Shown piece after piece: positions 4,311 through 8,403 of a DNA stretch of 42,861 nucleotides. Every line of letters begins with the position of its first letter. The stretch's first letter is position 1. The stretch is taken from NCBI GenBank assembly GCA_017414715.1, contig JAFQKV010000114.1, positions 1-42,861 on the forward strand. Reading direction: 5' to 3'. Made by a program: the position numbers and the translations under genes. Source of the stretch: Clostridia bacterium (GTDB taxonomy: Bacteria; Bacillota; Clostridia; Oscillospirales; QAMX01). The notes under the pieces were generated by a model that was given only the letters and a program-made list of their open reading frames with translations, searched no databases and had not been told where the DNA came from.

Positions 4311-4339
4311 TTGACAAATTACCCAAGCAGTACTATACT
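4311..4339 (+). promoter_or_regulatory. Promoter of the T-box leader
   Basis: Perfect -35 TTGACA (4311-4316), 17-bp spacer, -10 TATACT (4334-4339). It starts four bases after the PHP stop codon and would begin transcription near 4346. Confidence 0.88.
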
Positions 4340-4345
4340 ATGTTA

Positions 4346-4630
4346 AAGCGTTTGAGTGAGAAGAAGTAGCCCCGTTTAAAGATTCTACAGAGAGCTGCCG
4401 GTTGGTGAGAGGCGCAGAAATCCGCGGTGTGTGAATACATCTCATGAGCTGTCCGCCGAAAGGAACCTTTTCCCTGTAGACCGGATCGGGTGCGCCCGTT
4501 AGCGCGCAGAGGGTATGTTCGTACTCTCCGAGGCGTTTGCCGCAAGACAGACGTAGAATCAAAGGTGGTACCGCGTCATAGTTCATGTCGCCCTTTGAGC
4601 CAATAAAATGGCTCAAAGGGTTTTGTTTTT
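4346..4630 (+). promoter_or_regulatory. T-box riboswitch leader, UAC (Tyr) specifier
   Basis: All hallmark elements are visible. AGTA of the stem I specifier region is at 4365-4368, the distal GGTTGGTGAGA loop is near 4400-4410, and the specifier segment GAATACATCTCATGAGCTG starts at 4434 with UAC at 4436-4438. The conserved T-box AAAGGTGGTACCGCG is at 4561-4575. The antiterminator can form from 4559-4565 with 4592-4598, leaving bulge TGGT, which pairs with a tRNA ending ACCA. Helix A2 forms from 4573-4579 with 4585-4591 with one mismatch. The specifier frame is my reading by analogy with known leaders. Uncharged tRNA-Tyr should stabilise the antiterminator and switch on the downstream symporter. 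Confidence 0.9.
4591..4630 (+). terminator. Conditional terminator of the T-box
   Basis: A perfect 12-bp stem (4591-4602 with 4609-4620), loop ATAAAA, then TTTTGTTTTT. Its 5' arm overlaps the 3' arm of the antiterminator (4592-4598), so the two structures exclude each other. Confidence 0.9.
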
Positions 4631-4669
4631 ACCCGGAGCCAAATCTTTTGAAAGGCTGGTAAACTTCCC

Positions 4670-6208
4670 ATGGCACTCAAAATCATCATGCTCGTCGTTT
4701 TCTTCGGCTCTATGATCGCTATCGGTCTGTACTGCAGAAAAAATGCAACCGACGTTCAGGGCTTTGTGCTCGGCGGCAGATCCGTCGGTCCCTGGCTTAC
4801 GGCGTTTGCTTACGGAACCTCCTATTTTTCCGCGGTTGTATTCATCGGCTATGCCGGTCAGTTTGGCTGGAAATACGGTATTGCCGCAACATGGATCGGT
4901 CTAGGCAACGCATTTATCGGCTCTATGCTCGCATGGGTCGTGCTGGGGCGCCGTACCCGCATTATGTCGCAGCACCTGCAAAGCGCTACGATGCCGGAAT
5001 TCTTCGGAAAGCGCTTTGATTCCAATCCTCTGAAGGTCCTATCCTCTGCAATAATCTTTGTCTTTCTGATTCCTTATACGGCCAGTCTCTATAACGGACT
5101 TTCCCGTCTGTTCTCCATGGCCTTCAATATCGATTACTCCGTATGCATCCTTCTCATGGCAGTGCTCACAGCCATTTATGTCATCGCAGGCGGATATATG
5201 GCAACAGCGATCAACGATTTTATCCAGGGCATCATCATGCTGATCGGAATCGTTGCCGTGGTTCTCGCGGTTCTGAAAACAAACGGAGGCTTCAGCGAAG
5301 CATTGAAGGGCCTGTCTCAGGTAACGGACGCTGCGTATCCCGACATGCAGGGTGCGTTTGCATCCTTCTTCGGTCCCGATCCCGTCAATCTGCTCGGCGT
5401 TGTTATTCTGACCTCGCTCGGCACGTGGGGACTTCCCCAGATGGTACAGAAATTCTACGCAATCAAGGATGAATCCGCCATCAAAAAGGGAACCATTATC
5501 TCCACCCTTTTTGCCCTCATCATCGCGGGCGGCAGCTACTTTCTGGGTGGCTTTGCACGCCTGTATTCCGACAAGGTCGATATCGCGGCAAACGGTTATG
5601 ATACTGTGATTCCCACCATGCTTTCCGAGCTCAGCCCCATACTGATTGCCATCGTTGTCGTGCTTGTGCTTTCTGCATCCATGTCAACGCTTTCGTCTCT
5701 GGTCATCGCATCATCTTCCACGCTGACTCTTGATTTTTTGAAGACCGCATTCTTTAAAAGGATGTCCGAAAAACAGCAGCTGCTTATTATGCGCATATTG
5801 ATCGCAGTATTTATCGCCATCTCCGCCATAATCGCCATTTTCCAGTACAAGAGTTCCGTCACCTTCATTGCACAGCTGATGGGCATTTCCTGGGGTGCTC
5901 TGGCCGGCGCTTTTCTGGCTCCCTTCCTGTACAGTCTGTATGCCAAATGGGTCACCAAAGCCAGCGTATACGTCTGCAGCCTCTTCAGCGTAGTCCTGAT
6001 GCTTGCAAACATGCTCGTCCCCCAAGCTTTTCCTGCGTTGCTCCGAAGCCCTCTGAATGCCGGATCATTCGCCATGCTGGCCGGTCTCGTCATCGTACCT
6101 GTTGTCAGCCTTTTCACAAAGAAACAGAGCTCGGAACGCATTGGTGAAATCTTCTCCTGCTATGATGCAACGGTCGAAGTTTCCGTAAAGAGAGCACTGT
6201 CAAAGTAA
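4670..6208 (+). CDS. Sodium:solute symporter (SSS/PutP family), T-box controlled
   Basis: A 512-residue polytopic protein of the solute:sodium symporter family (PF00474). The first helix, the LGGRSVGPWLTAFAYGTSYF stretch and around 13 hydrophobic helices fit the family core. SSS proteins import amino acids, sugars, vitamins or anions with sodium. The leader carries a T-box with a UAC specifier, so the natural inference is import of tyrosine or a precursor; sequence alone does not show the substrate. The SD-like GAAAGG is 14 nt from the ATG, which is long, so translation may be modest. A bidirectional hairpin follows the stop and separates it from the convergent MFS gene. Confidence 0.9.
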   Translation: MALKIIMLVVFFGSMIAIGLYCRKNATDVQGFVLGGRSVGPWLTAFAYGTSYFSAVVFIGYAGQFGWKYGIAATWIGLGNAFIGSMLAWVVLGRRTRIMSQHLQSATMPEFFGKRFDSNPLKVLSSAIIFVFLIPYTASLYNGLSRLFSMAFNIDYSVCILLMAVLTAIYVIAGGYMATAINDFIQGIIMLIGIVAVVLAVLKTNGGFSEALKGLSQVTDAAYPDMQGAFASFFGPDPVNLLGVVILTSLGTWGLPQMVQKFYAIKDESAIKKGTIISTLFALIIAGGSYFLGGFARLYSDKVDIAANGYDTVIPTMLSELSPILIAIVVVLVLSASMSTLSSLVIASSSTLTLDFLKTAFFKRMSEKQQLLIMRILIAVFIAISAIIAIFQYKSSVTFIAQLMGISWGALAGAFLAPFLYSLYAKWVTKASVYVCSLFSVVLMLANMLVPQAFPALLRSPLNAGSFAMLAGLVIVPVVSLFTKKQSSERIGEIFSCYDATVEVSVKRALSK

Positions 6209-7558: not shown

Positions 7559-8335
7559 TCAGCCTTTCAGCTTGATATATACATTTTTACCGTTGGGGTT
7601 TTTTGTATTCTGCTCACTTGTGATCATGCGGATCTCAAACATATCGAGCATGCGAAGGAACTGGATGAGCTTCTTACAGCCGTAGTTGCGCACGTCAAAA
7701 TCGGGATAGCGCTTTGCCAGAACGTCACCGACCTCGCTGGCCATGAGCCAGCCCTCATCGTCGGAATTCTTATCTACAAAATCAATGATCATCTCGCGGA
7801 TGGTCTCCAGATCGGTCTGTGAGTTCTCCTGGGATTCCACCGGCTTCTGTTTTTCTTTCGGCTTGGCCGGTTTTGCGGTGCGGCTTGCCCGGACGGTCTG
7901 GGCATAGATCTTGTCAAGGTATTTGAACTGATTGCAGGCAGCGATAAAGGGGCGCGGTGTCTTCTCCTCACCCATGCCGATAACGTCCATGCCCGCCTCA
8001 CGCAGACGCGCCGCAAGACGGGTAAAGTCGCTGTCGGAGGTAACGATGCAGAAGCCGTCCACCTTGCCGGAATACAGAATATCCATTGCATCGATGATCA
8101 TGGCGGAATCAGATGAGTTCTTACCGGTGGTATAGTTGTACTGCTGCATGGGAGTCACGGAATTCTCAAGCAGAATCTCCTTCCAGCCGCCGGTATGGTT
8201 CTTGGTCCAGTCACCGTAGATGCGCTTATAGGTGGCAACACCCGCGTTGGATATCTCGTCCAGAATAATCTTGATATATTTCGATGCGATATTTTCCGCA
8301 TCGATAAGAATGGCGTATTTTTTGTCGTTTTGCAT
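7559..8335 (-). CDS. NYN-domain (PIN-like) RNase with C-terminal OST-HTH/LOTUS domain
   Basis: A 258-residue cytoplasmic protein. Residues about 5-145 form a NYN/DUF88 domain: LIDAENIAS near the start, NSSDSAMIIDAMDIL in the middle and IVTSDSDFTRLAARLREAG carry the conserved acidic metal-binding residues of PIN-like nucleases. A charged Pro/Lys linker leads to a C-terminal winged-helix domain (about 180-255: WLMASEVGDVLAKRYPDFD ... KLIQFLRMLD) matching the OST-HTH/LOTUS family, which binds RNA. The start is ATG at 8335 with AAAGGA 10 nt upstream; upstream in-frame codons lack an SD. An RNA-processing or RNA-degrading role is likely; the target is unknown. Confidence 0.85.
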   Translation of the reverse strand: MQNDKKYAILIDAENIASKYIKIILDEISNAGVATYKRIYGDWTKNHTGGWKEILLENSVTPMQQYNYTTGKNSSDSAMIIDAMDILYSGKVDGFCIVTSDSDFTRLAARLREAGMDVIGMGEEKTPRPFIAACNQFKYLDKIYAQTVRASRTAKPAKPKEKQKPVESQENSQTDLETIREMIIDFVDKNSDDEGWLMASEVGDVLAKRYPDFDVRNYGCKKLIQFLRMLDMFEIRMITSEQNTKNPNGKNVYIKLKG

Positions 8336-8403
8336 GACAGGCAAGTCCTTTCCGGGATGGATCAGCGCAGTTTTGCCGCACAAATTTCATCCGATCTTTA
8401 AAT

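Follow-up and report, generated by a model that had tools for sequence, protein, structure and literature searches.

T-box leader RNAs respond to the uncharged form of their cognate tRNA by switching their genes on, and the AGAGAG and apical motifs of Stem I contact the tRNA elbow. Known tyrosine-specific leaders of this class (RF00230), among them those of Bacillus subtilis tyrS and of NhaC-type transporters (PMC2494555), share Stem I, a UAC specifier, a UGGU bulge and a switch between antiterminator and terminator. In the passages of a 2008 survey considered here (PMC2494555), the table of T-box-controlled transporters holds the ABC, APC, DAACS, LIVCS, MFS, NHAC and NSS families; SSS is not in the table, and four T-boxes are described as lying at a distance upstream of "a sodium symporter", with no family given. 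The second system relevant here is the assimilation of aryl acids. Rumen anaerobes convert phenylacetate to phenylalanine (Allison, 1965, as cited in PMC7356843), and in Bacteroides an IOR-linked AMP-forming ligase has been assayed as an arylacetate-CoA ligase, with a biosynthetic role suggested, in a 2026 study that also describes IOR as able to run oxidatively (PMC13285125). The route in methanogens and rumen anaerobes combines an AMP-forming ligase or PaaK with IorAB, and reductive carboxylation has been proposed for it.

The locus that we describe lies in a 42,861-nucleotide contig from a Clostridia bacterium (JAFQKV010000114.1 of assembly GCA_017414715.1), here called the window. It differs from the known Tyr T-boxes in its target, an SSS symporter linked to putative aryl-acid assimilation, and the Clostridia version of that route differs from the methanogen and rumen one in its linkage to a dedicated symporter and in its control by Tyr or Phe T-boxes.

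The leader RNA in the window is a canonical member of the well-known T-box class (Table 1). The original prediction, made from the letters of the window, had named a promoter, Stem I motifs, a UAC specifier, a TGGT bulge, the T-box and a competing terminator, and all of these were borne out by cmscan, by the promoter consensus match and by folding. The Rfam covariance model RF00230, proposed at that time as a check, matched over its full length (model positions 1–219 of 219, 90.8 bits, E = 1.1e-20). Since the gathering score of this family is 93, the window T-box falls 2.2 bits short and a default Rfam scan misses it, while an E-value threshold recovers it; our genome-wide RF00230 scan recovered the same site. 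Stem I contains AGUAG (4365-4369) and CAGAGAG (4388-4394) in addition to its apical motif. The specifier loop reads GAA-UAC-A (4433-4439), and the Rfam alignment puts UAC in the specifier columns, preceded by a single deleted base. In orthologs whose leaders carry the extra base, the loop reads GAA-U-UAC, and the specifier frame is therefore unambiguous; AUA and ACA were rejected as alternative frames, since UAC is retained in ortholog leaders whose spacer differs. The antiterminator pairs CAAAGG (4560-4565) with CCUUUG (4592-4597) around a 7-nt bulge, and the same CCUUUG is also part of the competing terminator hairpin (4591-4620), which is followed by TTTTGTTTTT. With regard to the predicted pairing of the bulge with the discriminator base of the host tRNA-Tyr, the long-variable-arm tRNAs recovered from the draft assembly of the window's genome were all Ser or Leu, with no tRNA-Tyr among them.

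Table 1. Features of the T-box-controlled symporter locus, in window coordinates.
Feature	Position	Strand	Basis
Promoter, sigma-70-type TTGACA-17-TATACT (-35 TTGACA, 4311-4316; 17-nt spacer; -10 TATACT, 4334-4339)	4311..4339	+	11/12 consensus match
Tyr-specific T-box leader RNA (RF00230)	4342..4598	+	Full-length cmscan match
Stem I AGAGAG and apical GGUUGGUGAGAGG motifs	4388..4414	+	Sequence and Rfam alignment
Specifier codon UAC (Tyr)	4436..4438	+	Rfam alignment column; ortholog leaders
T-box sequence AATCAAAGGTGGTACCGCG, with acceptor-end bulge UGGU at 4566-4569	4557..4575	+	
Antiterminator helix CAAAGG/CCUUUG with UGGUACC bulge	4560..4597	+	Canonical fold, -10.0 kcal/mol
Intrinsic terminator, then T tract	4591..4630	+	-23.4 kcal/mol
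Sodium:solute symporter of the SSS/SSF family (512 aa); proposed to import aryl acids as tyrosine precursors	4670..6208	+	Pfam; ortholog operon context

We gathered relatives of the symporter from public genomes and from the window genome's own family, order and class. Judged by reference loci, that genome would fall within Clostridia, probably Oscillospirales; proteins of the same order group share 97-98% identity with that of a named Flavonifractor. A T-box lay directly upstream of the symporter at 46 of the 185 homologous loci, and UAC was the specifier in every readable leader before an ortholog, that is, in 45/45 leaders with Stem I present, with two spacings before the codon. The orthologous leaders tested scored 87-116 bits against RF00230. 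The predicted tyrosine specificity was thereby confirmed, with far more support than a single site could give. The T-box is not a chance match, as indicated by its RF00230 E-value, by a fold z-score of -2.6 and by the same leader standing before orthologs in many genera. On the protein tree, T-box presence required at least 17 changes, compared with 40 when labels were shuffled; it has therefore been gained or lost many times, with its specificity unchanged throughout. Lachnospiraceae-type orthologs mostly lacked a T-box. A UAC T-box was also observed before a far more distant SSS protein (L101, G020:C116; 42-44% identity), and from this locus Tyr control may reach beyond the symporter's subfamily.

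That the controlled gene encodes a sodium:solute symporter, as had been predicted, was upheld by the match of its product to Pfam PF00474 (SSF; 194.7 bits against a cut-off of 22.8, E = 3.1e-57). The gene stands alone in the window, and orthologs in the Clostridia examined were mostly 60-75% identical to it. PutP (proline) and PanF (pantothenate) have in common with it the SSF fold family, the S339/T340 motif and other core residues, whereas the window symporter lies far under their equivalog cut-offs and has different regulation and neighbours. It scored under every NCBIfam equivalog cut-off, the best match being PutP (TIGR02121, 199 against 515.5 bits); the score for PanF was 154 bits against a cut-off of 328 bits. 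A search of solved structures returned only distant SGLT/SiaT relatives, with no clue to the substrate, and among the conserved residues we saw no obvious carboxylate-binding arginine within a membrane helix. Near the symporter, at 7559-8383 on the minus strand, the window also encodes a protein with an NYN nuclease domain and an OST-HTH/LOTUS domain.

The neighbours of the orthologs were more informative. IorA is the catalytic subunit of indolepyruvate (arylpyruvate):ferredoxin oxidoreductase, and comparing an IorA search with the symporter loci put the IorA and SSS genes close together in over 20 genomes. Three loci (L209, L211 and L214) carry, collinearly and mostly with short gaps, a Tyr T-box, SSS, ligase, IorA, IorB, PaaK and ACT; four more (L208, L210, L212 and L213) carry a Tyr T-box, SSS, ligase, IorA and IorB, again mostly with short gaps, and further loci have the order ligase, SSS, IorA, IorB, PaaK. 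Within flanks of up to 3 kb at 80 named loci, a ligase, IorAB or PaaK neighbour was present at 34, compared with 1/80 for the control genes TyrA and AroF. The ligase lay directly beside the T-box-controlled SSS gene in 15 of 42 T-box genomes, and 11/42, including the nearly complete G261 and G349, were without a close ligase ortholog. Our IorA search of the T-box genomes found no convincing IorA in G048 or G443. The ligase belongs to the AMP-forming acyl-CoA ligases; among its nearest relatives of solved structure are fatty-acyl, feruloyl- and 4-coumaroyl-CoA ligases, which point to no particular substrate. By the same kind of comparison, PaaK is clearly a relative of the phenylacetate-CoA ligases. 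Control of these operons extended to phenylalanine: ligase-first operons at L029, L039 and L053 carry a Phe (UUC) T-box, and at L216 a Phe T-box lies between the symporter and IorA, while the ligase-first L070 has a Tyr T-box (UAC). Upstream of one ligase-SSS pair that has no T-box (L025), we observed a TwoAYGGAY RNA, an orphan motif (RF01731, 82 bits), at 972-1134 on the plus strand, just ahead of the pair.

The window's own genome (G000) contains nine RF00230 matches, two of them with a UAC specifier. The second UAC T-box (G000:C107:25731-25954, minus strand; L126/L255) precedes an AMP-forming acyl-CoA ligase that is the ortholog of the ligase adjoining the symporter in other genomes, so that symporter and ligase, which elsewhere form one operon, are separated here with a Tyr T-box on each. 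Such a split-off ligase with its own UAC T-box was present in five genomes (G000, G011, G002, G003 and G078). The region G000:C12:351-5384, in which the genome-wide RF00230 scan detected no T-box, encodes IorA, IorB, PaaK and an ACT protein. There, IorA scored 728 bits (cut-off 651) and IorB 273.5 bits (cut-off 230); PaaK, at 537 bits, is under its cut-off of 646, but its alignment to phenylacetate-CoA ligases of solved structure reaches E = 1e-132. Tyrosine auxotrophy was rejected as an explanation, as G000 encodes TyrA together with the DAHP synthase AroF at C118 and TyrA occurs in the majority of T-box genomes. Another source of tyrosine thus exists in these organisms, and the proposed route would be a supplement.

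Several other T-boxes came to light in this survey. In G000, a T-box at C74:11744-12004 (plus strand, L127), with AUC (Ile) as its aligned specifier, precedes the gene for a fusion of an XRE-cupin protein with an acyl-CoA ligase, and at C38 a similar XRE-cupin and ligase pair lies downstream of a 2-oxoacid:ferredoxin oxidoreductase. These two loci suggest a parallel salvage of branched-chain acids such as 2-methylbutyrate to isoleucine. At L213 (G277:C190), an Ile-type (AUC) T-box at about 433-657 on the minus strand is divergent from the Tyr T-box and points toward an IorA-like 2-oxoacid:ferredoxin oxidoreductase subunit. A further T-box in G000 (C50:2879-3077, plus strand, L129; 59.7 bits) has the specifier ACC (Thr) and an unexpected target, a gene whose sequence, inspected by eye, is ComM/Mg-chelatase-like.

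We consider it likely that the symporter gene provides the import step in a salvage of aryl acids to tyrosine or phenylalanine that is induced by starvation and operates beside the shikimate/TyrA route. Uncharged tRNA-Tyr would bind through the UAC specifier and the UGGU bulge and stabilise the antiterminator, allowing transcription into the symporter gene; with charged tRNA-Tyr, the terminator would stay formed. The symporter would bring in an aromatic carboxylic acid with sodium, most likely an arylacetate (4-hydroxyphenylacetate or phenylacetate) destined for Tyr/Phe synthesis. The acid would then be converted to its CoA thioester by the Tyr T-box-controlled ligase at C107, by PaaK or by both, reductively carboxylated to the arylpyruvate by IorAB, and transaminated to tyrosine (or phenylalanine). 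We infer both the flux toward tyrosine and the response of the leader to tRNA-Tyr in vivo. The arylacetate-CoA ligase study (PMC13285125) concerned other organisms, and its carry-over to the symporter operon is our own extension by analogy.

The original prediction had the transporter importing tyrosine or a precursor of it. The second half of this claim is now favoured, in the form of an aromatic-acid precursor, and tyrosine itself is disfavoured, in view of the ligase/IorAB/PaaK/ACT context, the Tyr T-box on the ligase itself and the Phe T-boxes elsewhere. A symporter for L-tyrosine, or for aromatic amino acids generally, whose neighbouring enzymes were a second and independent means of raising tyrosine under the same control, would agree with the invariant UAC of the readable directly upstream leaders, with the Tyr T-boxes known on amino-acid transporters of the NhaC and NSS families (PMC2494555) and with the rank of PutP, an amino-acid symporter, as best NCBIfam match, far under cut-off as it is. 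We nevertheless think such a symporter unlikely, as it leaves unexplained both why the genes for CoA ligase, IorAB and PaaK are so closely linked to the symporter and why the transporter occurs in Phe T-box operons. A transporter under Tyr or Phe control, within an operon that would lead from aryl acid to arylpyruvate, fits arylacetates better than tyrosine alone, and what is imported is probably a precursor rather than tyrosine itself.

The same enzymes could in principle serve a fermentation in which tyrosine or phenylalanine enters through the symporter, IorAB oxidises the arylpyruvate and the ligases yield ATP or free arylacetate. IOR is oxidative in peptide-fermenting archaea and has been implicated in the conversion of phenylalanine to phenylacetate by Bacteroides thetaiotaomicron (PMC13285125; PMC5817080). 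We regard this as very improbable here, because T-boxes activate their genes under scarcity of the amino acid, the reverse of what a catabolic operon would need, and because AMP-forming ligases favour synthesis of the CoA ester, as argued in PMC13285125. With a switch that is on in starvation and ligases that are AMP-forming and consume ATP, the operon is most simply assimilatory. Least credible of all is that the symporter carries some other organic acid, with Tyr control reflecting a broader stress response or a chance T-box capture. T-boxes do spread by duplication and sporadic capture (PMC2494555), and the scatter of T-box presence over the tree would be in keeping with this, but chance capture is not expected to yield T-boxes that recur with one and the same specifier and are tied to one aromatic pathway. 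Returning to the assimilatory reading, on balance we favour its wider form, a widespread Tyr/Phe T-box regulon of Clostridia in which an SSS aryl-acid importer, a CoA ligase, IorAB and PaaK, switched on by amino-acid shortage, would enable gut and rumen anaerobes to turn arylacetates from neighbouring organisms into tyrosine and phenylalanine.

The switch at this locus is a known one, and its target pathway and importer are apparently undescribed in openly searchable papers: a search of the open literature, with two central T-box surveys outside its scope, found no paper joining a T-box to an SSS transporter, to IOR or to aryl-acid uptake. Our findings provide a testable substrate class for a large group of unassigned SSS transporters. 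They also nominate genes, together with a signal for their regulation, for aryl-acid assimilation, which is known physiologically in rumen anaerobes. If the regulon reading is true, it would define an arylacetate subfamily of SSS transporters tied to biosynthesis and offer candidates for the genes behind a pathway that was observed in rumen bacteria during the 1960s. It also predicts a form of cross-feeding, in which other gut bacteria, when short of tyrosine or phenylalanine, would import the host-relevant arylacetates produced by amino-acid fermenters. More generally, T-box specifiers can expose pathways, beyond the substrates of single proteins.
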